This document shows, piece after piece, positions 9,309 through 54,339 of a stretch of DNA of 64,000 nt; position 1 is the first letter of the stretch; the number at the start of each line of letters is the position of its first letter. The DNA is from Nitrospira sp. GTDB taxonomy: Bacteria > Nitrospirota > Nitrospiria > Nitrospirales > Nitrospiraceae. The notes under the pieces are model-generated. The model was not told where the DNA came from. It searched no databases and saw nothing but the letters and a program-made list of their open reading frames with translations. Position numbers and translations under genes: made by a program. The stretch spans positions 62,001 to 126,000 of the forward strand of contig JAUYAO010000022.1 of NCBI GenBank assembly GCA_030692565.1, given 5' to 3'.

Positions 9309-10001
9309 TTAAACCGCCACCTCTGTGTGGAGAAGAGTTTGTTCGGCCACCACATTCACACTTGATGGGCTCACAGTTGCCATCCATGCCATGAGCTGTG
9401 GCCGTTTCTGCGCAAGGACAGTCTCACATCTGACGATATCAATCGTCGCAGCAATTGATACTGCTCCAGCTGGAGGAAGCGCTACGGGCGGACCCAGCGG
9501 GTCACAGGGAATCCCCATCGCATTCAACATCCGAAAGAGCCGATGCTCAACCTCAAGGTAAAGATATCGGACATCCTGGGCCAGAGCCCACTGGTAGATT
9601 CCCTTGATGAGGCTCAACATCATCCGAGCAGACAATCCCTTGTCTATGATCATGGGGTCAATCGCCAGCCTTGTGATTTCAGCAGTATCTCGCTCCTTGC
9701 GTATCAGATGCCCTGAGGGAAGCAACATGCGGAGATCATGCTCGAGCATGAATTGCCCTGTGGACGGCAATAGTCTGGCAAGGCCGAGAATTCTCCCCTC
9801 TCGGCTGAATAGCCCAATCGATGTCCCCCAAAGATCATACATATCCATCTCTCGTCCATCATCGGACGGACAGACCCATCGCAGGGTTTCCGCGAACACC
9901 CTATGCCGGAGCCGGTATGCCTGATCCAGCTCACCAGAAGAAGTCAGCGTCTTGACTTGCATATCTCCTTCAGAAAATTCGATTCCCGTCTGCATTTCCA
10001 T
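9309..10001 (-). CDS. Acyl-homoserine-lactone synthase (LuxI family)
   Basis: The enzyme joins an acyl chain to S-adenosylmethionine to make the quorum signal. The 230-residue protein shows the invariant residues of LuxI proteins: RLRHRVFAETLRW (Arg, Phe, Trp), REMDMYD (Asp pair), GLARLLPS (Arg) and EITRLAI (Glu, Arg), followed by the GNAT-like core to LYLEVEHRLFRMLNAMG. The start at 10001 has AAGGAGGGG in front of it; the frame opens further to 10049 but without such a site. The lux box lies 72-91 bases upstream of the ATG. N. moscoviensis has been reported to make AHLs, which fits. Acyl length cannot be read from the sequence. Confidence 0.92.
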   Translation of the reverse strand: MEMQTGIEFSEGDMQVKTLTSSGELDQAYRLRHRVFAETLRWVCPSDDGREMDMYDLWGTSIGLFSREGRILGLARLLPSTGQFMLEHDLRMLLPSGHLIRKERDTAEITRLAIDPMIIDKGLSARMMLSLIKGIYQWALAQDVRYLYLEVEHRLFRMLNAMGIPCDPLGPPVALPPAGAVSIAATIDIVRCETVLAQKRPQLMAWMATVSPSSVNVVAEQTLLHTEVAV

Positions 10002-10069
10002 ACTCCCCTCCTTGTTTAGGCCCATGTACTTCTGACTTGAGAAACACATTTCTTGTAATTGGCCGATTT

Positions 10070-10095
10070 GTCACCTGGCGGATCCGCCAGGTGAC
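10070..10095. promoter_or_regulatory. lux box: perfect 26-bp palindrome upstream of luxI
   Basis: The core ACCTGGCGGATCCGCCAGGT (10073-10092) has the ACCTG-N10-CAGGT pattern of the classic Vibrio fischeri lux box, including the central GGATC. The palindrome extends without mismatch to 26 bases. It lies in the divergent gap between luxI (start 10001) and the sensor kinase (start 10203), 72 bases from the first and 108 from the second, so LuxR could act on both. There is no T-run after it, which argues against a terminator. Confidence 0.8.
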
Positions 10096-10202
10096 GAATA
10101 GGCTTGTCTTCGCGTACTACTCTCCACTTAGTTGGGATACGCTCAACAAGAGGTTCGATTGCCCTGCGCCGAGCTGGTTGAACGGAGAGGAGGAATGACA
10201 TA

Positions 10203-11021
10203 GTGAATGAAGGAAAGAGACTCCACATCATCGATGGGTTTCGGCAATCTCCGCCCCTCGCCCGTCGTCATCAATTCGGACAAGGGGAAGGCCAGAGGCG
10301 CAGCAGCGAGAGCCATCGCTTTCCCAAGCTCGCCCCGCCGGCCGGAGGCCAGCTGACGGTCGCGCTCAAAGCCACGGAAAAACGCTTGAGCAGTTTGTTG
10401 GAGGACCGGAACCGCATCAGCCGAGATCTTCACGACTCGGTCTTGCAATCGCTGTATGCCATCGGGCTCAGCCTGGAAACCTCCCACCGTACCAATACAT
10501 CACCACGACCAGGGGCCGATCGCCCATACAGCCATGCCGTGGATCAGCTCAATCGCTTGATTCACGAGGTGCGAGGCATCATCAAGGGGCTTGCGGATGG
10601 ATCGGTGCAGGACATGGACCTGTCTGAGGAACTCAGGCAGGTGGCCGGCAGTTACGAGCAACTCAGCGGCGTCACGATCACGCTCAGCCTGCAGCCTTCG
10701 GCACTGGACGTACTCACCCGGGAGGAAGAGCAGGAGATTCTGAACATTGTGCGAGAGGCCTTGAGCAATTGCGTCCGCCATGCGCAGGCGACTCACGCCG
10801 AGGTGACAATCAGGACGCACGGGAACCGAGTGCGTATCAGTATCTGCGACGACGGAAAGGGATTTGTCGAAACCGGCGCGCACCCCAAGGGGTATGGCTT
10901 GATGAATATGGAAGCGCGGGCCAGGAAACTCGGCGGCAGCTTGCTGCTCCGCTCGAAGCCCGGTCAGGGCACTCGCATTTCAGCGGAATTTTTACTGGAA
11001 CCGATTTTAGCGCCTGTATGA
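10203..11021 (+). CDS. Sensor histidine kinase, HisKA_3/NarX type, cytoplasmic
   Basis: The 272-residue protein has a short N-terminal region without membrane segments, a HisKA_3 dimerisation helix RNRISRDLHDSVLQSLYAIGLSLE (about 77-100, His85 as the phospho-acceptor), and a HATPase domain ending ICDDGKGF and GYGLMNMEARARKLGG. There is no obvious input domain. The GTG at 10203 lies 11 bases after GAGGAGG; no ATG lies in frame before the kinase core. It overlaps the downstream NarL regulator by four bases, so the two form a two-component pair. Its leader carries the lux box in the divergent gap, so quorum control is possible. Confidence 0.88.
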   Translation: MNEGKRLHIIDGFRQSPPLARRHQFGQGEGQRRSSESHRFPKLAPPAGGQLTVALKATEKRLSSLLEDRNRISRDLHDSVLQSLYAIGLSLETSHRTNTSPRPGADRPYSHAVDQLNRLIHEVRGIIKGLADGSVQDMDLSEELRQVAGSYEQLSGVTITLSLQPSALDVLTREEEQEILNIVREALSNCVRHAQATHAEVTIRTHGNRVRISICDDGKGFVETGAHPKGYGLMNMEARARKLGGSLLLRSKPGQGTRISAEFLLEPILAPV

Positions 11022-41382: not shown

Positions 41383-42674
41383 CAGACCATGGCCCCCACA
41401 GGTTCAGCCACCTTCACGCGCACACGGCCGGTCAGAAGGTCTTGCATGAGGCCGTGTTTGATCTGCGTACTATTGGCCAGATGACGCTGCGCAAGCCGCA
41501 GGCTTTGGTCTAGGCTACCGAGTCGCTCGGTAATTCGTGATTGCTCATCAGGATCACAATATGGGAACAGAAGGCGTTCCATGACATTGTTGTTGAGGCT
41601 TGGCATTGTCGTTCCCACAGCCATCCCTGCGATCTGCCGCTGAACGACATCATGCCGATAAACAAGAGCCGCAAAGTCCCCGTGCAATGAGCTTCGACCG
41701 AGCCGCAGCAAGAAGCACCCTGTTCCACAGAGCCAAGCTTCTTCACGATCCGTAATCACTGAGGCACGTGATAGGTCTCCTCGGCGCGCAATGACGATAT
41801 CGCCAGTCTTCATCCGGTGACGCGAAAGATCTTCAGCGCGCCGCTCAGATATTCGTGCAATCTGTTCCGTCGAAACGATGCCATCGTTGATATCCTGCGG
41901 CATCACCACGGGCACACCCTCATGCTGATATTCATAGGCGTGAAGCTGACTCCCGAAAGGACCGGTCTGAAAATACCCACCGCATTCCTTCAGAATTACG
42001 CCCAGCCGCCTCACCTCCCACTCTTTCGGAATCCAGCCGAGGGGGGATTCTTTGTAGAGTTGGGGGGCTTGGGCGCTGGTGGGGCGAAGGTGGCCGTCGG
42101 GGGACAAGCCACGAGTAAAGAGGTCGTGCATCAGCCCCGCCTTGATCTGCTGATACTTCGCAATCAACGCCTCCGTATGCTCAATCGCCTCGTCCACCGT
42201 CGAAAGAATTTCGGCGATCCGACATTGCTGCGATAACGAGAATTCGGGAAAGAGGATCTGTCCTATCGTTGATTGATTGATAGAGGGAAGAGCACCAGTT
42301 TGAACGTAGTTGGCAAAATCTACCGAGCATAAAAAGTGATAGAGAAACTCCGGATCAGCAGTCGTTGGAACCGCAGCCATCATATTATTATCAATGATGG
42401 TTGGCTCCATAAGCATTCTGCGTCTATTCAGCAATAAGGCTGCACCGACTTTTGCAAATACTGTTGAACGAGGTGGAAACGCACTTGCGTGTAGCTGTTC
42501 TGCAACAACCCTGTCCACATAGTTATTGGCAACCGTGATTGTCCTCTGATTGCCAGGCAAGGACATATCGCTTACTTTGATGAAAGCAACATCGCCTTCC
42601 TGGTTTCCCTGAAATGACTCTGGGAAGCCAGTCCCCCCTTTCAAAGTACAGTAGTTGCTAAGCGGCCTACTCAT
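41382..42674 (-). CDS. hsdS: Type I restriction-modification specificity subunit
   Basis: HsdS sets the DNA target through two recognition domains. The 430-residue protein has a first TRD (about 5-140), a central conserved helix ([37 protein letters not shown], about 160-195), a second TRD (about 220-370, with [28 protein letters not shown]) and the C-terminal helix ([29 protein letters not shown]). The two-half layout is complete. It overlaps hsdM by eight bases. Confidence 0.94.
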
Positions 42675-45600
42675 ATCCCAACTCTGTCAAGATCGTTTTC
42701 AACTTCGCCGCTTCGGCGTCCCGTTTGGCTTCGATGATCTTGGCTGTTACTGCATACTTCGCATGCAAGTTTTCCAGCGCAGCGGTGCAGGCTCGTTGGT
42801 CGGCGCGGAGATAACCCTCGTAGGTCTGAACGAGTATTCGGTGCAGGCGGTCGAGGATGACGCGGCGGGCCTCGTCCCGGTCGATCTTCTCGCGAGCGGC
42901 AGTCACCAGTTCTTCCTTCTTCTTTTCCGTGGCACGGAGGTCGGCCTTCAATTGCCTTTCCTCGTCCTCCAGTGCTTTATGACGGGCAAGCCGTATCTCC
43001 GCCGCTTCGGCGTGAGCGATGAACTTGGACTGGTCACGTTTTTCTTTCTTTGCCAGCTTGGCTTGGGCTTTCGCTTCCTTCAGTTCAGCCTTGAGCGCCT
43101 TCACCTCGCTGTCGGGTAACAGGCCGGTATCGTCGCTGTCTTCGTAGGCCTCTTCATCGGCAGCGGCAAAGAGGGCAGACAGCTCAGCCAGACGCAGACG
43201 CTTCTGCTCCATGTCGGCCAAAACTTCAGGAAACTGGCTCTGGAGAATGTCGTCGTCGGGAATCAGCTCCGGTCCCCATCCGCTGAAGGCAATTGACTTG
43301 AATTCCGGTTTGAAGAACTCGAAATAGCTGGCCAGTGCGCCGCGAATCTGATGCTCCGTCAGGATGGAAGACGCGCCCTCACCCTGCCCTCTCCCGGTGG
43401 GAGAGGGAAACCGTTGCGTGATGCTGGACAGCAGCGTGCGTCGAAGCTCGTAGACATTGCCCCGCTTGCCATTCTTCGGCGCGAGAGATTCGATGAGCGA
43501 AAGGTGCTCCTTCCACCACAGCTCCAATGTTTCAAGAAAACGCGTATGGGCCTTTGCGACTCCTGGGTCGCTCTTGACCAGTTCCGCGAGGGCGCGACGG
43601 TCGGTAACTGCTGGGGCGAAGTCAACATAAATGCCCTCACCCCTCCCCTCTCCCAGAGGGAGAGGGCCACTCTCGGTCACGGAATGTGGGTCACCCTCTC
43701 CCTTCGGGAGAGGGCAGGGTGAGGGTCCTGCGGCTTGCGATTCCACCACAGCTTGATAGACCGCCTCCAAGACTGCTTCGGTCTCAGCCAGCACCTGATT
43801 GTTCCAAAAGCGGAGCGTCCGGATGCCAGTCTTGACAAGAAAGGACTCTCTTCGCGCATCGTGCGCGCGCCCCGCCAGCTCATTGTGCTGCCCCCCATCC
43901 ACCTCGACGGCGAGTTTCAACTCATGACAGTAGAAATCGAGGACATACGGTTCGAGCGGATGTTGGCGGCGAAATTTGTATCCAGCGATCTGGCGATCCC
44001 GTAAGAGTTGCCACATGAGGGCTTCCGCATCGGTACGCTCTTGACGGAGGGTGCGTGCCAACTGGAGGAGCTCATAAGGCAGCGGTGTGTTCGTGCGCAT
44101 GTCGGATGACGGGTTTTCTGCCCTCACCCCAGCCCTCTCCCAAGGGGAGAGGGAGCCGCTGGTGCGTGAGATGAATACGCGATCGCGCAAGCCTGGATAG
44201 TTCTTCCAGAAGTGGCTGAGTGCGTCGACCTCCACCACTGGCACCCCGCCTTGTAGATGGGCTCGTACGTCGTGCGGCTCAGGTGGCGGGGCATTGTCCA
44301 CGTAGCGGCGGATGTTGCAGTTGAAGTCTTCGGCGGCGATCTCGCTGACCGGTACAAGCCTGGCGTAGCCTTCGACATTCTTTCGTTCACGATAGACGTG
44401 AACCATCTTTGAGATGTCTTCTGGACGGAGGAAGTTCTGCGCCTTGCCTTCGCGGTATTCCCGGTCGGCGTTGATGAAGAAAACCTGCTTGCGAGAAGCG
44501 GCATCCTTCTTGTTCATCACGAGCACACAGGCTGGAATGCCCGTCCCGTAGAACAGCCCCGCGGGCAGGCCGATGATTGCCTCCAGCCAGCCACGCTCGA
44601 TGAAATGTTTGCGCGCTTCCTTCTCCTCGCCGCCCCGGAACAGCACACCATGGGGCATGATGGTGGCCATCTTTCCGTCCGCCTTGAGCACGGCCAGCAT
44701 GTGCTGGACGAACATGAGGTCGGCTTTCTTGCCCTTCTCCGGCATCCAGACGGCGAAGCGGCCTGAATATTCGATATCTTTTTTGATGTAGTTCTGGCTG
44801 AAGGGCGGATTGGCGAGGACACGGTCATAACGCTTGAGTTCGTTGTTCTCGGCCTTATGCTGCGGGCGGCGGATCGTATCCTCCTGGCGGATATTGGCGT
44901 CAGCAATGCCATGCAGCAGCATGTTCATTTTGCAGATGGACCAGGTGGTGCCGATGCTCTCTTGGCCAAAGAACGAGACGTCCTTCGGGTTTCCGCCGCA
45001 CTCACGAATATAATCGCGCGTCTGAATGAGCATGCCGCCGGAGCCGCAGGTCGGGTCATAGATGCTCATGCCAGGATGAGGATCGACGATCTCCACAAGG
45101 GTGCGCACTACATCAGCCGGCGTATAGAACTCGCCGGCCTTCTTCCCTGCCGAGTCGGCAAAGAATTTGATGAGGTATTCATAGGCGGCGCCGAGTAAGT
45201 CGGGAAACTCGAAGTTCTCGTCGCGGAGCGGAATCTTTTCGAAGTTCTGCACGAAGTTCGACAGCGTGTCGTCGTCGAGCGTGCGCTGGCCGATCTTGCG
45301 GTTGAAGTTGATGTGTTTGAGCACATCCTGGAGCGCTTCAACGTTGGCGTCCTCCAAGGCTTCGAGGGCTTTATTGAGTCCACTGCCGACATTGGTCTTT
45401 AGATGGCGAATCTTCGACCAGCGCGCGCGCTCAGGAACGAAGAAGGTGTATTTGTCCGGATTGGTGAGCTGCGCGGCAACTTTAGCCTCCGACATGCCCC
45501 TGGCTTTCAACTCTTTCGCCAGTTGTTCTTGCTCCTGATCGAAGAGATCGCTCATTCGTTTCAGGAAGAGCATGCCGAAAATGTATTCCTTGTACTCGGA

Positions 45601-45678
45601 CGCATCCATGTTCCCGCGCAGGTCGTCGCAGGCGCGGAACAGGAGGCTGGACAGCTGGCTGAGGGTGAGTTTGGTCAT
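42667..45678 (-). CDS. hsdM: Type I DNA methyltransferase subunit HsdM with an internal DUF559 endonuclease domain
   Basis: HsdM methylates adenine in the target and forms the core of the R2M2S complex. The 1003-residue protein has HsdM_N (about 1-150), the N6-adenine methyltransferase core (about 155-480: PTCGSGGML and the catalytic [11 protein letters not shown]), then a C-terminal region ending in a long coiled coil (about 790-1000). Between RDRVFIS (about 503) and YVDFAPAV (about 682) lies an in-frame insert of some 180 residues that holds a DUF559 domain and palindrome-coded linkers. A further palindrome sits near residue 765. Typical HsdM proteins are 500-850 residues. The start at 45678 begins the HsdM_N-like [22 protein letters not shown]; the frame is open to 45846. 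Confidence 0.93.
43374..43411. repeat. C-rich palindromic repeat in hsdM 3' part
   Basis: CCCTCACCCTGCCCTCTCCC is followed by GGTGGGAGAGGG, forming a hairpin. It is translated in frame as [15 protein letters not shown], about 75 codons after the DUF559 insert. Confidence 0.8.
43633..44168 (-). mobile_element. In-frame DUF559 cassette bounded by palindromic repeats, inside hsdM
   Basis: The segment interrupts the HsdM sequence. On the plus strand it holds palindromes at 43633-43668, 43693-43726 and 44120-44154, all with CCCTCACCC/CCCTCTCCC cores. Between them (about 44100 down to 43733) is a complete DUF559 domain: [51 protein letters not shown] and [23 protein letters not shown]559 is a Vsr-like PD-(D/E)xK nuclease family; the Asp of LDFYC and the Glu/Asp of VEVDGGQH are present, so it may be active. 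No stop codon or frameshift occurs, so it is translated with HsdM. Confidence 0.75.
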
Positions 45679-45797
45679 ACCGCGCCGAAGTCTAGCGAAT
45701 TCCCCCTGGTGGGGCAATGAGAATGGATGCTGAAGTCCAGCCGCCACCGACATGTTCCGCCTTGACACCGGCTCAAAGCAGGTGTTACCACGCTGCC

Positions 45798-46574
45798 ATG
45801 CTACGAACCGGACAGCCGCCCGTGACACAGGATTCCCACGCGCCACCCCAAGCCGTATCGACCTGGTCCGGACCGGCGCGCGAACAGGCCGTGCAACGGA
45901 TGTTCACCGCCATCGCCGGTGTCTACGATCTCAACAACACGCTGCTGAGTTTCGGACTCCATTACCGCTGGAAGAAAATCACGGCGTCGTTCGTCCCGCA
46001 CGTCGAACAGGGCACGGCGCTCGATGTGGGCGCCGGCACGGCAGACTTAGCTTTATTAGTCGAGCCCCGCATGGGGACCAACGGCCGCGTGGTCGCCTCC
46101 GATCTCAATCACGCGATGCTCGCCGAGGGGCTCAAGAAGGTGGATCTCAAAGGGCGCACGGGCAAGATCTCCTGCCTGCAAGCCAATGCAGAGCATCTCG
46201 GATTCACGGACAACACGTTCGATGCAGTGACGACCGGCTTCTGCATGCGTAACGTCGGCAACCTCCCGCAAGCGGTCGGTGAAATTCGCCGGGTGATGAA
46301 ACCGGGCGGCACGTTTGTCTGCCTGGAGTTCTCCCGTCCGGTCTTTGGATGGCTGCGGGCACTCTATGATTGGTATTCGTTTACATTGCTGCCCTGGATC
46401 GGAACGAAGGTCGCGCGGGACACGACCGGCGTGTATGAGTATCTACCCGCCTCGATCCGCACGTTCCCCGATCAGGAGCGACTCTGCCAGGTCCTGCGCG
46501 AGGCCGGCTTCCGCCAAGTGTCCTATAAGAACCTCACGGGCGGGATCGTCGCGATCCATGTGGCGGTGAAGTGA
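45798..46574 (+). CDS. ubiE: Demethylmenaquinone methyltransferase, UbiE/MenG family
   Basis: This SAM-dependent enzyme does the C-methylation in menaquinone (or ubiquinone) synthesis. The 258-residue protein has the family opening [29 protein letters not shown], the SAM-binding [13 protein letters not shown] (about 76-88), [18 protein letters not shown] and [15 protein letters not shown], and it ends with [13 protein letters not shown]. The frame is open to 45717 but similarity begins well after the ATG at 45798. It is divergent from hsdM and followed by a heptamer cluster. Confidence 0.93.
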
Positions 46575-46684: not shown

Positions 46685-48310
46685 ATGGAATCGATCCTTT
46701 ATGTCTTTCTGCCATGCAAGAAGGTCTATCCGATAGGGATCACCTATCTGGCCGACTTCATTCACCGCCGGCAGCCGGACGTGCGCCAACAGATCCTCGA
46801 CCTGTCGCTCTTTCCCGTCTCGCAACGCAGCCAGGCCCTGCGCGATACGGCGGCAGCCTTCAAGCCCGACCTGGTCTGTTTCTCCTGGCGGGATATTCAG
46901 ATCTTCTCTCCCCACGAAGGCGATTCGTCGCTGGAGCATGCGTTCAATTTCTACTTTGCCAGCAATCCGCTCAAGCGCGTGGTGGCATCGTTCGAGGGCG
47001 TGAAGCAGCTCTACCGCTACTACAGCCACATCTACAAAATTCTGTCGTATCCCTGGCTGATCCGGAAAGAGTTCTCAACGGCACAGATCATGATCGGGGG
47101 CGGAGCCTTTACGGCCTTTGCCGATCAGCTTATCGAGAAGTTGCCGGAAGGGACGATCGGCCTGCTCGGCGAAGGGGAAGATGCGATCCTGAAGGTGATC
47201 GAAGGACGCTCGATCGAAGACGAACGCTATATCATCAAAGAAGGCGGGAAAGTCCGGAAAGGCCAGCAGGGCTCACCGGCGCTGCTCGATGCCCTGACGG
47301 TCGATCTGCCTTACCTGACGTCGATCTTCCCTCAGCACCGAGAATTTATCGGCGAATCCATCGGCGTACAGACCAAACGGGGCTGTCCCTACGACTGCGC
47401 CTTCTGCCTGTACCCCTATATTGAAGGAAAGCGGGTCCGGTATCGGCCGCCGGCCATGGTAGTGAAGGATATTTCTCAGCATTACCACCAGTGGGGCGCT
47501 CGGCGGTTCTGGTTTACCGATGCCCAGTTCATCACCGGGAAAGAGGCCTATCCGCAATGCACGGAGATTCTGGAGCGGATTGTCAGCGAAAAGCTGGACA
47601 TCGAGTGGTCCGGCTATATCCGCACCTCGCTCATTACGCCTGAGCTGGCGAAGCTGATGGTGCGGTCGGGCGTGGGAGATCTGGAAGTGGCCATCACGTC
47701 CGGCTCTCAGGAGGTGCTCAACAACCTCCATATGGGGTTCAAGCTCGAGCGCCTCTATGATGGATGCCGCTACCTGGCTGAAGCCGGCTTCAAGGGCAAA
47801 GTTATCCTGAACTATTCGCTCAATTCTCCCAAAGAGACGGAAGAGACGCTTTTGCAAAGCGTGGAGTCCTATAAGATCGTGGCCTCGATCCTGGGAGAGG
47901 AGCGGGTATTCCCTCTGATGTTCTTCCTGGGAATCCAGCCGAATACCGATCTTGAACAGCGCCTGCTTGAAGAAGGGTACCTGTCGGCCGGCTATAACCC
48001 CTTGATGCTCACCCCGACCAGTATCCGGAAGCTGCTCTATAACCCGGCCCCCCTCAATAGCTTCATTGCGAAAGCCTGCCTGAAGGCCTGGGAACGGAAG
48101 GAGGGCAGTCGCGACCCCAGAAAATGGACCGGCTCCCTCTCTCAAACAGCGTCCGCCGATGCCACGAGTCAATCCGGCCAATACGCGGACAAAAGCCTGG
48201 TCAAAGGGATCGAAGGGAACTCCGGCCGGGACGCCCTGCTGTCGCTGGAAGAGATACTCCGATCACGCCCGAGCGCTCGTGGGACGTCAACCGCCACTCG
48301 TCAATCGTGA
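46685..48310 (+). CDS. B12-binding domain radical SAM protein
   Basis: The 541-residue protein has an N-terminal cobalamin-binding-like region (about 1-190: FLPCKKVYPIGITYLADFI, IMIGGGAFT, LLGEGEDAI) and a radical SAM core with the cluster motif RGCPYDCAFC (about 231-240). A later part reads NYSLNSPKETEETLLQSVESY. Proteins of this class methylate or rearrange carbon skeletons (HpnP, BchE and others); the substrate here is unknown. The last dozen codons (RGTSTATRQS) are coded by a heptamer repeat. It precedes the USP/PCP_red gene by 174 bases. Confidence 0.87.
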   Translation: MESILYVFLPCKKVYPIGITYLADFIHRRQPDVRQQILDLSLFPVSQRSQALRDTAAAFKPDLVCFSWRDIQIFSPHEGDSSLEHAFNFYFASNPLKRVVASFEGVKQLYRYYSHIYKILSYPWLIRKEFSTAQIMIGGGAFTAFADQLIEKLPEGTIGLLGEGEDAILKVIEGRSIEDERYIIKEGGKVRKGQQGSPALLDALTVDLPYLTSIFPQHREFIGESIGVQTKRGCPYDCAFCLYPYIEGKRVRYRPPAMVVKDISQHYHQWGARRFWFTDAQFITGKEAYPQCTEILERIVSEKLDIEWSGYIRTSLITPELAKLMVRSGVGDLEVAITSGSQEVLNNLHMGFKLERLYDGCRYLAEAGFKGKVILNYSLNSPKETEETLLQSVESYKIVASILGEERVFPLMFFLGIQPNTDLEQRLLEEGYLSAGYNPLMLTPTSIRKLLYNPAPLNSFIAKACLKAWERKEGSRDPRKWTGSLSQTASADATSQSGQYADKSLVKGIEGNSGRDALLSLEEILRSRPSARGTSTATRQS

Positions 48311-48484: not shown

Positions 48485-50578
48485 ATGTATAAGACCATCT
48501 ATATCCCGGTCGATAATTCCGACCATTCGAATACAGCGGTCGACGTGGGCGTCGAGTTCGCGAAGACCTTCGGGTCCAAGATTGTCGGCAGCCACGTGTA
48601 CGCCGCGAAGATGCACGACAAGCGCTTCAAGCAAATGGAAGCGGGACTGCCTGAGGAATATCACGATGAAAAGGAACTGGACCGCCAGCGGCAGATCCAC
48701 GATTCGCTGATCACGCGCGGACTCCAGATCATCACGGACTCCTACCTCGACTACGTCGACAAGAAGTGCAACGAGTCCAACCTCCCGATCGAACGCAAAT
48801 CCCTCGAAGGGCGCAATTGGAAAGTGCTCGTCGAAGATATCAATACCAACGCCTACGATCTGGTCATCATGGGCGCGCTAGGCGTCGGCGCGGTGAAAGA
48901 CAGCGTGATCGGCAGCAATACCGAACGCGTGATCCGCCGCATCCGCAACTCGGACATGTTCATCATCAAGAACACCGAGCCGATGAACAACGGCAAGATC
49001 GTGGTGGCGGTCGACGGTAGCCCCTATTCCTTCGGCGGGTTGATGACGGGTCTGGCCCTCGGCAAGGCTTTCAACCGGCCGGTCGAAGTCATCTCCGCCT
49101 TCGATCCGTACTTCCATTACGCGGCCTTCCACAGCATCTCCGGCGTGTTGAACGAAGAAGCCGGCAAGGTCTTCCGGTTCAAGGAACAGGAAAAGCTGCA
49201 CGAAGAAATTATCGACAGCGGCCTGGCCAAAATCTATCAGTCGCACCTCGATGTGTCCCGTGAAATTGCCCAAGCCGAGAACACCGACGTCAAGACGACC
49301 CTTCTTGACGGCAAAGCCTTTGAAAAAATCATTCAGTACGTCCGCAAGGATACCCCCTGGCTGCTCATCGTCGGCCGCATCGGCGTCCATAGCGATGAAG
49401 ACATGGACATCGGCAGCAACACGGAAAACCTGTTGCGCAGCGCCGCCTGCAACGTCCTGGTGTCCAATCGCAAGTACGTGCCGCCGATCGATACGCAAGC
49501 CGAGTACACCATCGCTTGGACGGAAGAAGCCTTGCGGCGGATGGAAAAGATTCCGATCTTCGCTCGCGGCGTGGCCAAGACCGCGGTCCATCGTTATGCC
49601 ATTGAAAAAGGCCACACGATAATCAGCAACACGGTTCTCGATATCGCCATCGGACACATTCTTCCCAAAGGAGCCATGGATGCCATGCGCGCCCTCGGGG
49701 GCAGTCTGGATGCCGCCGGCATCGACCGGGACAAGATGCAGGCGGACGATTCGGTCGCCAAGGACCTCATGGGCAACACCCTGAGCGGCATGATGACCGG
49801 CATCGTCGAAGAAAAGCCGAAGAACTCGGTCGGGACCCAGGCCTACCTCGACCGCATGAGCCAGAATTATTTCGTCTGCGACGGATGCGGCTACATCGGG
49901 AAGGGCGACGCGCCCGTGAAATGCCCGGTCTGCTCCGCCGACGGCGACAAGTTCAAGCTGGTCGACAAACAGATTTTCGAAGCGGCCGCCAAGGCCGAAG
50001 GCGAGCTGGAAACCGATCTCGCTTACGACGATGTCCCCATGCAATGGACGAAGGACGCGAAAGAAGCGATCCGCGCGGTTCCCGCCGGATTCCAACGTCG
50101 CCGCGCCAAGGCCAGAATCGAAAAAAGCGCCCGCAAGCTCGGCATGACGACGATTACACTCGAATACGCCGCCCCCACGATCAAGGAAGCGGCGGACGAA
50201 GACTATCAGCCGATTTTCGCGAACAAAGGCACCGGCACCGCGCCGGAAGCCGAAGAAAAGCTGGCCGCCATGGCCAATGGGACGAACGGCGAGCATGCGA
50301 ACGGCAACGGCGCTGCCAAGCCGGCGGAAACTTCTCCGTTTACCTGGAGCGCTGACGCCCAGGCCAGGCTGGAGCGGGCTCCGGAAGGCTTCATGCGCGA
50401 TTGCACCAAGGCATTGATTGAAAAGCATGCGGAGAAGATCGGAGCGACCCTCATTACGGCTGAAGTGGCCAATGAGGGGATCGAACAGGCCAAGGGCTAT
50501 ATGGCCGATGCGATGAAGACCGGCAATCTGAAGGACATGATTGCCAATCTCACCGGTTCGAAGTCCGGGGCCAACTGA
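48485..50578 (+). CDS. Universal stress protein fused to rubredoxin-like and three PCP_red domains
   Basis: The 697-residue protein starts with two UspA domains (about 1-165 and 168-330; GALGVGAVKDSVIGSNTERV and GRIGVHSDEDMDIGSNTENLL are the nucleotide loops). PCP_red-like modules, the small C-terminal domain of the BchB/ChlB subunit of dark protochlorophyllide reductase, lie at about 338-392 (IAWTEEALRRMEKIP), 517-565 (MQWTKDAKEAIRAVP) and 618-665 (FTWSADAQARLERAP). A rubredoxin-type ribbon (CDGCGYIGKGDAPVKCPVC, about 463-481) lies between the first and second. GGAGGAGG stands about seven bases ahead of the ATG. No photosynthesis gene is in the window. The arrangement suggests a stress-linked redox role around a tetrapyrrole; this is inference. 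Confidence 0.88.
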   Translation: MYKTIYIPVDNSDHSNTAVDVGVEFAKTFGSKIVGSHVYAAKMHDKRFKQMEAGLPEEYHDEKELDRQRQIHDSLITRGLQIITDSYLDYVDKKCNESNLPIERKSLEGRNWKVLVEDINTNAYDLVIMGALGVGAVKDSVIGSNTERVIRRIRNSDMFIIKNTEPMNNGKIVVAVDGSPYSFGGLMTGLALGKAFNRPVEVISAFDPYFHYAAFHSISGVLNEEAGKVFRFKEQEKLHEEIIDSGLAKIYQSHLDVSREIAQAENTDVKTTLLDGKAFEKIIQYVRKDTPWLLIVGRIGVHSDEDMDIGSNTENLLRSAACNVLVSNRKYVPPIDTQAEYTIAWTEEALRRMEKIPIFARGVAKTAVHRYAIEKGHTIISNTVLDIAIGHILPKGAMDAMRALGGSLDAAGIDRDKMQADDSVAKDLMGNTLSGMMTGIVEEKPKNSVGTQAYLDRMSQNYFVCDGCGYIGKGDAPVKCPVCSADGDKFKLVDKQIFEAAAKAEGELETDLAYDDVPMQWTKDAKEAIRAVPAGFQRRRAKARIEKSARKLGMTTITLEYAAPTIKEAADEDYQPIFANKGTGTAPEAEEKLAAMANGTNGEHANGNGAAKPAETSPFTWSADAQARLERAPEGFMRDCTKALIEKHAEKIGATLITAEVANEGIEQAKGYMADAMKTGNLKDMIANLTGSKSGAN

Positions 50579-51981
50579 TGGGTAAATCGCTCCCGATGCT
50601 GAGCCTCCCGTCTTTGCAGGGAGCGCTCGGGTCGCTTCAACAACAGATCACGCAGTTCATGACCCCTGCGCCGAAGGGCGAAGGAGTGTACGACGGCCGG
50701 ACCGTCGATGACTTCAAGCCATATCTCGTTGCGCTCAATCTGACAAAACGCTGCAATCTCAAGTGCGATCACTGCTACCTCGATGCCACCACCAAGTCGG
50801 CCGGCGGCGACGACGAGCTCTCCACTGAAGAGTGTTACAAGCTCATTGATCAAATTGCCGAAGTGAATAAAGGCTGCCTGCTGGTCATCACCGGCGGAGA
50901 GCCGCTGGTCCGTCCCGACATTCTCGATATCGCCCGCCACGCGGTGAAGCTCGGCTTCATGGTGGTCTTCGGAACCAACGGCATGCTCATCAACGATCAG
51001 ATGGCCAAAGCCCTCGTCGAGATCGGCGTGATGGGCGTCGGCATCAGCATCGATTCGCTCGATGCCGCCAAGCACAATTCTTTCCGTGGCGTCCCGGGCG
51101 CCTGGGAGGCCGCGGTGGCCGGCATTGAAGCCAGCAAGCGCAACGGCCTTCAATTCCAAGTCCATTTCAGCGCGCAACCGATGAACTATCAGGAGCTGCC
51201 CGCGGTCATCGAGTGGTCACATCAACTGGGTGCGCGAGTCCTCAATGTGTTCTTCATGGTCTGCACGGGCCGCGGCGAAGAGCTCACGGACATCACGCCG
51301 GCGCAGTACGAGGAAGTGCTGGGCTATCTGGTCAATTGCCAGGACAATTATAAGGGCATGCTGGTCCGCGCCCGTTGCGCCCCCCACTTCAAGCGCCTGG
51401 CTTACGAGAAAGATCCGAACTCTCCCATCACGAAAGCGACCGGTTACATGGGCGGCGGCTGCCTCGCCGGCACCAATTACGCGCGCGTGACGCCGAACGG
51501 TGAATTGACGCCCTGTCCCTATATGCCGCTCTCTGCCGGCAATGTCCGCGAGAACAGCTTCGTCGATCTCTGGGAAAAGTCCGACGTCTTCAATTCCTTC
51601 CGCTACCCGCAGCTCAAGGGGAAATGCGGCGACTGCGAATATACCGATATCTGCGGGGGCTGCCGCGCCCGTCCGTACGTGGATCATGGCGACTGGCTGG
51701 ATGAAGATGAGTGGTGTCTCTACACCCCCAAAGGCGGCGAGAAGATCAAGGTGGCCTTCAACGTCCCAGAAGAATCCGTCATCCCCTGGGACGAGGCATC
51801 CGAGCTGCGTTTGAGCCGTATCCCCTATTTTCTCCGCGCGATGGTCAAAAAAGGCGTCGAGAAGCATGCCCGCGAGAATAGCGTCTCGCTCATCACCATC
51901 GAGCTGATGGAAGAGCTCAGAAAAAAGCGATTCGGCAACGACGCGCCCGTCTTCAATTTCGACATGAAGGGTAAGGAGTGA
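50578..51981 (+). CDS. Radical SAM/SPASM protein (NirJ/AhbD-like) with C-terminal PCP_red domain
   Basis: The 467-residue protein has a radical SAM core (about 50-260) with CNLKCDHC (about 60-67), the GGEP loop ITGGEPLV, and NPDG-like VTPNGELTPCPY. A SPASM region holds extra cluster cysteines (CPYMPLS, CGDCEYTDICGGCRA, about 302-368). NirJ and AhbD use this layout to trim side chains of heme precursors. The last 60 residues (IPWDEASELRLSRIPYFLRAMVKKGVEKHARENS) are a PCP_red module like those in the upstream protein. It starts on the base where the upstream gene stops, so the two are translationally coupled. Confidence 0.88.
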   Translation: MGKSLPMLSLPSLQGALGSLQQQITQFMTPAPKGEGVYDGRTVDDFKPYLVALNLTKRCNLKCDHCYLDATTKSAGGDDELSTEECYKLIDQIAEVNKGCLLVITGGEPLVRPDILDIARHAVKLGFMVVFGTNGMLINDQMAKALVEIGVMGVGISIDSLDAAKHNSFRGVPGAWEAAVAGIEASKRNGLQFQVHFSAQPMNYQELPAVIEWSHQLGARVLNVFFMVCTGRGEELTDITPAQYEEVLGYLVNCQDNYKGMLVRARCAPHFKRLAYEKDPNSPITKATGYMGGGCLAGTNYARVTPNGELTPCPYMPLSAGNVRENSFVDLWEKSDVFNSFRYPQLKGKCGDCEYTDICGGCRARPYVDHGDWLDEDEWCLYTPKGGEKIKVAFNVPEESVIPWDEASELRLSRIPYFLRAMVKKGVEKHARENSVSLITIELMEELRKKRFGNDAPVFNFDMKGKE

Positions 51982-52028: not shown

Positions 52029-52538
52029 ATGGACGCCCTCCAAAGCATCGTCACCGATCTGAACACCCTGATTCCGATCATCAATCACTGGTTCCATCTG
52101 CTGTCGGCCATCATTTGGATCGGCGGACTGGCGTTTCTTGTCATGGCCGTTACTCCGGGGCTGAAGAAAGCCGTGGCCAAAGAACAGATCAAGCCCATCA
52201 GTGATGTGTTTTACCAGCACTATAGGAAGATAGCCGGGATCCTCTTGGTGGTGCTCCTGTTTACCGGCGGGATCAATCTGCACTACGTCAATCAGGTCAT
52301 GACCTCGCAGACCCAGCTGGGGATCCAGCACAATGCCAAGTACTTGACCATTTTCTTCATCAAGCTCGGGTTAGTCCTGTGCTTGCTCACCCTGTTTCTC
52401 TACACCGTCATCTTCAAGTCAGATGATGAAGCAGAGGAGGATGAGGATTATGAAGTCATTCCCTATCAGCGCGCGGCTCTCTGGATGGGATTTTTTATCG
52501 TCCTCTGTGCTGCCGCAATGAAACATCTGCACCTATAA
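52029..52538 (+). CDS. CopD-like/DUF2269-type membrane protein
   Basis: The 169-residue protein has four hydrophobic segments (about 16-45, 68-88, 105-130, 145-165) with His in the first (NHWFHLLSAIIWIGGLAF) and later (INLHYV, MKHLHL). This recalls the CopD/DUF2269 group of b-type heme or copper membrane proteins. An acidic loop (SDDEAEEDEDYE) lies before the last segment. It follows the radical SAM gene by 47 bases on the same strand and could give the system a membrane partner. Confidence 0.78.
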   Translation: MDALQSIVTDLNTLIPIINHWFHLLSAIIWIGGLAFLVMAVTPGLKKAVAKEQIKPISDVFYQHYRKIAGILLVVLLFTGGINLHYVNQVMTSQTQLGIQHNAKYLTIFFIKLGLVLCLLTLFLYTVIFKSDDEAEEDEDYEVIPYQRAALWMGFFIVLCAAAMKHLHL

Positions 52539-53577: not shown

Positions 53578-54339
53578 TTAGGAGGTGCGTTGACCGGAGG
53601 ACGCCCGTTTGAACACGGCCTTCAATCCGAAATAGGCGAACGAGTCTTTCAGGTTTGAGTACAGACGATGAAACCGGCCCATTTCAGGATTCGTGACATA
53701 CTCCATCGTCAGCGCCACCCGCTCCTCCCCCTCCGCCGGAGGGGTGACCGCATGCCAGAGCTTGTCGCCGTTGAAAATGACCATGTCCCCGGGCTCGGTA
53801 ATGAGTTCGAGATGCTGCGTCTCCTTCGCCGGATCGTCCTTAAACAGATCACACACCAGCTTGCAGTGCGATGACCGGTCGACCATTCCCATCAAGATCG
53901 TATAGCGCGCGCCCTTGTAGTACGACGTATCGTAATGAAAGCCGATATGGTCCCCCGGCTCCGTGTAGTAGTAGAGCGCACAGGAATGCGGATCATCGTC
54001 CGGGCATAACAGCAGATTCGCATGCACCAACCGGTTGAGAAAGCTGCGATAGGCGGTCGACCGGTAGAGGTCGAGGAACAAGGGCGCCTGCTCCTGCACC
54101 GTATAGTAGCTGACGCTGCCGCCCTTCTTGTGGCCGGGGATATAGTTGCGGTTGATGCGCGGCTTGAGCCCTTCCACCTGCGGCACAAATGCTGATTCGA
54201 CAAACGACCACGGAAGAAATTGCTTGATGACAAGAAACTCGTTCTGATCCCAGTAGGTCTTGTGCAACCGGTCGAAATCGAGCGCCGCAACGGCCCGGTC
54301 GACGGCTTCCGTCACTGACTGTGCGCTGGTCGATTGCAT
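53578..54339 (-). CDS. 2OG-Fe(II) oxygenase family protein
   Basis: The 253-residue protein has the double-stranded beta-helix iron site: HYDTSYYKGARYTILMGMVDRS carries the HxD pair (about 134-136) and LWHAVTPP the distal His (about 197), with Arg in EERVALTMEY to bind oxoglutarate (about 207). Such enzymes hydroxylate small molecules, proteins or nucleic-acid bases; the substrate is unknown. It is the first gene seen at the left end of the minus-strand run, 63 bases from lolA, with which it may share a transcript. Confidence 0.85.
   Translation of the reverse strand: MQSTSAQSVTEAVDRAVAALDFDRLHKTYWDQNEFLVIKQFLPWSFVESAFVPQVEGLKPRINRNYIPGHKKGGSVSYYTVQEQAPLFLDLYRSTAYRSFLNRLVHANLLLCPDDDPHSCALYYYTEPGDHIGFHYDTSYYKGARYTILMGMVDRSSHCKLVCDLFKDDPAKETQHLELITEPGDMVIFNGDKLWHAVTPPAEGEERVALTMEYVTNPEMGRFHRLYSNLKDSFAYFGLKAVFKRASSGQRTS

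Follow-up and report, generated by a model that had tools for sequence, protein, structure and literature searches.

What are four copies of PCP_red (PF08369), the module found at the C-terminus of the BchB/ChlB subunit of DPOR, doing in two coupled genes of a Nitrospira? The window analyzed here comprises 64,000 nucleotides of Nitrospira sp. GCA_030692565.1 (contig JAUYAO010000022.1, positions 62,001-126,000, forward strand), and coordinates refer to it unless another contig is named. In a scan of named genomes covering the best 80 of 380 relatives, all Nitrospira-type, the loci nearest to the window belong to members of Nitrospira, N. defluvii and N. moscoviensis among them. The first of the two genes encodes a protein with two universal stress protein (Usp) domains, here called Usp-PCP, and the second encodes a radical S-adenosylmethionine (SAM)-SPASM enzyme. 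We find that this pair is real, conserved and, as far as we searched, apparently undescribed. Judged by alignment and phylogeny, the radical SAM enzyme is a subfamily of its own among AhbD-type enzymes, marked by a C-terminal PCP_red.

A gene pair carrying four PCP_red modules

The two genes and their domains are as follows.

48485..50578, + strand: tandem-Usp/PCP_red/rubredoxin-ribbon protein (Usp-PCP), 697 residues; Pfam: two Usp, three PCP_red, RUBY_RBDX
48485..48943, + strand: Usp domain 1 (PF00582), residues 1-153; Pfam; ATP motif G-2X-G-9X-G-S at residues 130-144
48992..49465, + strand: Usp domain 2 (PF00582), limits approximate; Pfam; full ATP motif at residues 297-311
49517..49648, + strand: PCP_red copy 1, Usp-PCP gene; 50.8 bits
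49871..49957, + strand: rubredoxin-like ribbon RUBY_RBDX, residues 463-491; 29.4 bits against a cut-off of 26.5; Cys465, Cys468, Cys480 and Cys483
50045..50164, + strand: PCP_red copy 2, Usp-PCP gene; 41.8 bits
50345..50470, + strand: PCP_red copy 3, Usp-PCP gene; 38.3 bits
50578..51981, + strand: radical SAM-SPASM-PCP_red protein, 467 residues, AhbD/NirJ2-like; Pfam Radical_SAM, SPASM and PCP_red, NCBIfam, tree
50737..51153, + strand: radical SAM core, CX3CX2C formed by C59, C63 and C66; Pfam, alignment
51376..51387, + strand: CAPH motif, C267-H270; common to the AhbD groups, not seen in PqqE
51460..51717, + strand: SPASM region with C295, C313 and C350-X2-C353-X5-C359-X20-C380; Pfam, alignment
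51787..51921, + strand: PCP_red copy 4, C-terminus of the radical SAM gene; 53.2 bits

All four PCP_red copies, three in Usp-PCP and one in the radical SAM enzyme, exceed the curated Pfam gathering cut-off of 32.5 bits. The whole genome holds 11 copies across five genes, and a profile built from these matches the C-termini of ChlB/BchB structures in the PDB (2kru, E=1e-10; 2xdq, 2ynm and 3aek). It also matches Asr4154 of Nostoc (2l09), which likewise carries PCP_red outside DPOR but is a single short protein of 62 residues. The likeness to BchB/ChlB lies in the module itself; the Oxidored_nitro core is missing here, and the modules are carried by the stress protein Usp-PCP and its radical SAM partner. 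Oxidored_nitro (PF00148) has no match anywhere in the genome, so no protein in it classifies as DPOR subunit B, and this absence is consistent with a non-phototrophic organism. An earlier note on this DNA, made from the letters alone, had named the modules PCP_red and the organism apparently non-phototrophic, and the profile searches agree with it on both points.

Because the genome combines 11 copies with no nitrogenase- or DPOR-type protein, PCP_red is unrelated to chlorophyll here, which frees the module from its chlorophyll label. A reading of the PCP_red genes as DPOR remnants was rejected. Literature searches on PCP_red, PCP reductase and the function of the DPOR C-terminus returned nothing that explains the module. 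The three further PCP_red genes lie on contigs C47 and C1 of the same genome (L039:3823-4824, L040:8259-9014 and L041, about 9900-10400). One consists of PCP_red repeats only, one has a Cys ribbon and adjoins an Mrp-type P-loop gene, and one has a Cys ribbon and lies near a bd-like oxidase gene.

The combination of two UspA domains and a rubredoxin-like ribbon in one protein, also read by eye at the outset, is borne out by Pfam, with both PF00582 matches and RUBY_RBDX over cut-off. The two Usp domains each keep the full signature of ATP-binding universal stress proteins (a Usp domain with G-2X-G-9X-G-S/T), and its glycines are invariant in the alignment; ATP binding by Usp-PCP is therefore likely on sequence grounds. 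The four ribbon cysteines are likewise all invariant in an alignment of 12 sequences.

The genes overlap at a stop/start TGATG (50576-50580), and their association extends far beyond this genome, as a neighborhood survey suggested by the earlier note makes clear for this part of the locus. Usp-PCP occurs in 29 of 29 relatives searched, and the radical SAM gene comes next after it in all 78 named Nitrospira-type loci whose contig reaches far enough. In a phylum-wide sample of 118 Nitrospirota genomes, the Usp protein is present in 41, representing 14 of 50 genera. The pair is also found in families f6, f10, f12, f20 and f21, with 38-57% identity between the radical SAM proteins; in family f4, which belongs to the order of Nitrospira, the Usp gene is adjoined by a CopD-like gene and not by the radical SAM gene. 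The number of PCP_red modules on the Usp partner ranges from none (f20 and f21) to three. The ancestral unit was probably a tandem Usp protein with a radical SAM-SPASM-PCP_red enzyme, to which additional modules were added later. Scans for promoters and terminators returned no more signals than shuffled sequences did.

The radical SAM enzyme and its relationship to AhbD

The best NCBIfam models for the radical SAM enzyme are NirJ2 (TIGR04055; 324 bits across the whole enzyme) and AhbD (TIGR04545; 316-317 bits), each with a cut-off of 500 bits. Enzymes of the deep relatives score similarly, and scores in the Usp-linked clade run at 285-345 bits against the 500-bit cut-off. The resemblance to NirJ/AhbD heme-trimming enzymes that had been noticed at first sight thus extends to the top-scoring models, and it extends to the motifs as well. 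Usp-linked radical SAM proteins and both groups of AhbD-like proteins share CX3CX2C, TGR, CAPH and the CGGCRAR region, together with CX2CX5CX20C, which has been reported for AhbD (PMC3942049) and closely resembles the motif of NirJ (PMC10548856). PqqE, the nearest solved structure, lacks CAPH and TGR. Because these motifs are shared with AhbD, and CAPH and TGR are missing in PqqE, we infer that the substrate of the enzyme is a tetrapyrrole.

Beyond the common radical SAM-SPASM architecture and some 35-39% identity to the AhbD homologues of the phylum, the differences from AhbD are consistent. Phylogeny of 48 proteins yields three groups: the Usp-linked enzymes in one clade with 100/100 support, the AhbDs above cut-off, and a second AhbD-like set. 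The enzyme thus does not group with AhbD; the f20 and f21 proteins have long branches in this tree, which makes their exact placement less sure. Near the active motifs, N54 replaces E and Y67/D69 are conserved differences. AhbDs end at 355-422 residues without PCP_red, whereas the module is present at the C-terminus of every full-length Usp-linked enzyme scanned with Pfam. A tandem-Usp protein is the fixed partner of the pair enzyme, and eight other genomes hold an AhbD-type gene together with the pair.

Proposed function and competing explanations

The genome contains hemE, hemH and hemY in a row, plus a ChdC-like protein, and coproheme is therefore probably available. ChdC-like proteins occur throughout Nitrospirales. 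Two genes of the chlorite-dismutase family are present in the genome (C37:19098-19673 and C52:72084-72644), one ChdC-like and the other chlorite dismutase-like with a signal peptide.

In two deep families, the pair stands among respiratory genes or next to hemY. The order in f12 (L180) is bd-like oxidase, cytochrome c, a cytochrome c with an ethylbenzene-dehydrogenase-type domain, Usp-PCP, the radical SAM gene and hemY. In f21 (L185), a Crp-type regulator is followed by the radical SAM gene, the Usp gene, a bd-like oxidase, two cytochromes c, a molybdopterin oxidoreductase and an Fe-S subunit. Judged by eye, the neighbors in f20 (L186) are an Rrf2-type regulator, a cysteine desulfurase and an IscU-like gene. 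Together with the ribbon-PCP_red gene near a bd-like oxidase gene in the Nitrospira genome itself, this context ties PCP_red modules to respiration in a few cases. Low O2 raises the levels of several UspA proteins in N. marina, in a study that does not identify the present Usp protein (PMC8115632).

The reading we tentatively favor, while regarding it as somewhat more apt to fail than to hold, is that an ATP-sensing Usp protein works with an AhbD-like enzyme, whose task would be to trim an iron-tetrapyrrole destined for the respiratory chain. The two genes would then act as one functional unit. The radical SAM enzyme would probably act by radical chemistry on one of the side chains of the iron-tetrapyrrole, and Usp-PCP, binding ATP through its two Usp domains, would most likely gate the enzyme, or deliver for it, according to energy or oxygen state. 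The PCP_red modules and the ribbon of Usp-PCP may serve in docking and electron handling. The product would most likely go to the respiratory chain, for example as the heme of bd-like oxidases or cytochromes at low oxygen, and in Nitrospirales a CopD-like protein could act at the membrane side. A broader version, which we consider unlikely as a whole, envisages an undescribed system spanning the phylum. In it, a Usp protein gated by ATP would control a radical SAM enzyme derived from AhbD, this enzyme would supply bd-like oxidases with a special heme, and PCP_red would be a module by which tetrapyrrole enzymes dock in general, not one specific to chlorophyll.

Several observations weigh against the favored reading. 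The enzyme falls far under both 500-bit cut-offs, SPASM enzymes often act on peptides, and no heme gene adjoins the pair in Nitrospira itself. Neighbors vary among families, and the respiratory link comes from two or three cases. The AlphaFold models of both proteins, built from alignments of close relatives only (mean pLDDT 54.6 and 61.3), are too poor to reveal an active site.

The enzyme could instead be a plain oxygen-independent heme b synthase, decarboxylating coproheme as AhbD does, as a low-oxygen backup of the peroxide-dependent ChdC with the Usp protein as its regulator. AhbD is indeed the nearest enzyme and shares its motifs, AhbD is known as a HemQ replacement (PMC10548856), the probable availability of coproheme would suit such a role, hemY adjoins the pair in f12, and genome G036 of that family has neither ChdC nor AhbD. 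A second anaerobic coproheme decarboxylase would, however, be needless in the eight genomes that carry an AhbD-type gene as well, and the separate clade, the sub-cut-off scores and the conserved N54 and Y67/D69 also speak against it. Since Nitrospirales have ChdC and eight other pair genomes have AhbD, it is unlikely that heme b comes mainly from this enzyme, and a role as the sole heme b synthase was rejected; it may still act as a low-oxygen backup. On balance we hold this explanation to be improbable.

Rather less probable is that the pair helps to assemble or repair metalloproteins of respiration such as the bd-like oxidase or NXR-like enzymes. PCP_red and ribbon would then handle electrons or apo-proteins, and the target of the radical SAM chemistry would be a cofactor already present there. 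The operons in which a bd-like oxidase stands with cytochromes c and a molybdopterin enzyme would fit, as would the separate PCP_red proteins near a bd-like oxidase and beside an Mrp-type P-loop gene, yet such neighbors are absent at Nitrospira's own pair locus and the association is not universal. We give a little less credence again to modification of a peptide or protein, the activity of most SPASM enzymes, in which Usp-PCP or the CopD-like protein would be the substrate and PCP_red the recognition module. The SPASM domain, the fixed protein partner and the matches to mycofactocin, PqqE and sactipeptide maturase models are in line with such an activity. The top scores nevertheless belong to tetrapyrrole enzymes, CAPH and TGR are shared with AhbD and absent from PqqE, and among open reading frames of at least 70 residues the loci share no conserved gene for a small precursor peptide.

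Nitrospira are the main nitrite oxidizers in many habitats and have many bd-like oxidases of unknown cofactor. An AhbD-type pair that lies beside respiratory or heme genes in relatives offers a direct way to ask about a special heme or an oxygen-free heme route.

Flanking genes and other features

Three genes flank the pair on the same strand.

45717..46574, + strand: mpqE, methyl-plastoquinone methyltransferase; NF052510, 407.7 bits against a cut-off of 335
46685..48310, + strand: B12-radical SAM protein (Slr0320/BzaD-like), judged to lie outside the pair; NCBIfam, distribution
52029..52538, + strand: CopD-like membrane protein, 169 residues; NCBIfam, homologues; conserved His20, His23, Lys112 and His168

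The earlier note had proposed that the B12-radical SAM gene, the pair and the CopD-like gene belong to one tetrapyrrole or redox pathway, and the four genes do stand in a row here and at most Nitrospira loci. The distribution of the B12-radical SAM gene, however, tracks mpqE rather than the pair, and we rejected it as a member of the block. All 55 of the 118 genomes that carry it also have mpqE; the two adjoin on the same strand in 53, usually less than 115 bases apart, and lie on different contigs in the other two. Conversely, mpqE (at least 315 bits) is found in 57 genomes, 55 of which have the B12-radical SAM gene, and 28 genomes have mpqE without the pair. The B12-radical SAM gene also occurs in families that lack the pair, sits with mpqE far from the pair in family f3, and at several named Nitrospira loci no longer separates mpqE from the pair. 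A four-gene system is thus largely refuted, and we regard it as very improbable. The tie to stress sensing that the earlier note proposed, and a heme or corrin substrate, stand as hypotheses.

The B12-radical SAM protein is homologous along nearly its whole length to Slr0320 of Synechocystis (NF045585; 447 bits), but it remains under the 775-bit cut-off and its gene lies beside mpqE, not photosystem genes. Slr0320 is required for good QA-to-QB electron flow, and the authors of that work raised the unproven possibility that it might methylate plastoquinone (PMC8065906). The pairing with mpqE, taken together with the mutant defect on the quinone side of photosystem II (PMC8065906), makes the protein a candidate enzyme of (methyl-)plastoquinone biosynthesis, for example a ring methylase, for which the gene pairing provides independent support.

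The CopD-like gene keeps its place in the block within Nitrospirales, where it follows the pair in 70 of 71 testable named loci; in the deeper families examined, the block does not include it. The window protein scores 35 bits against the 195 of NF033808 and has no PF05425 match, while its f4 homologue passes the PF05425 cut-off. Its four conserved residues would be suited to binding heme or copper. Further downstream, a 2OG-Fe(II) oxygenase (53578-54339, - strand) with a weak match to the HalD halogenase (29 bits, cut-off 26) is retained beside the block in several Nitrospira.

Two further features were noted by eye. An HsdM-type methylase open reading frame (42667-45846, - strand) contains an in-frame DUF559-like endonuclease segment between GC-rich repeat-like peptides ([17 protein letters not shown]), and the insert resembles a repeat element carrying cargo within a gene. 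Elsewhere in the genome (C15:16093-19805, L176), three radical SAM/SPASM genes stand with HPr-kinase-like and signal-peptidase-like genes and an ABC transporter, an arrangement that resembles a peptide natural product cluster.

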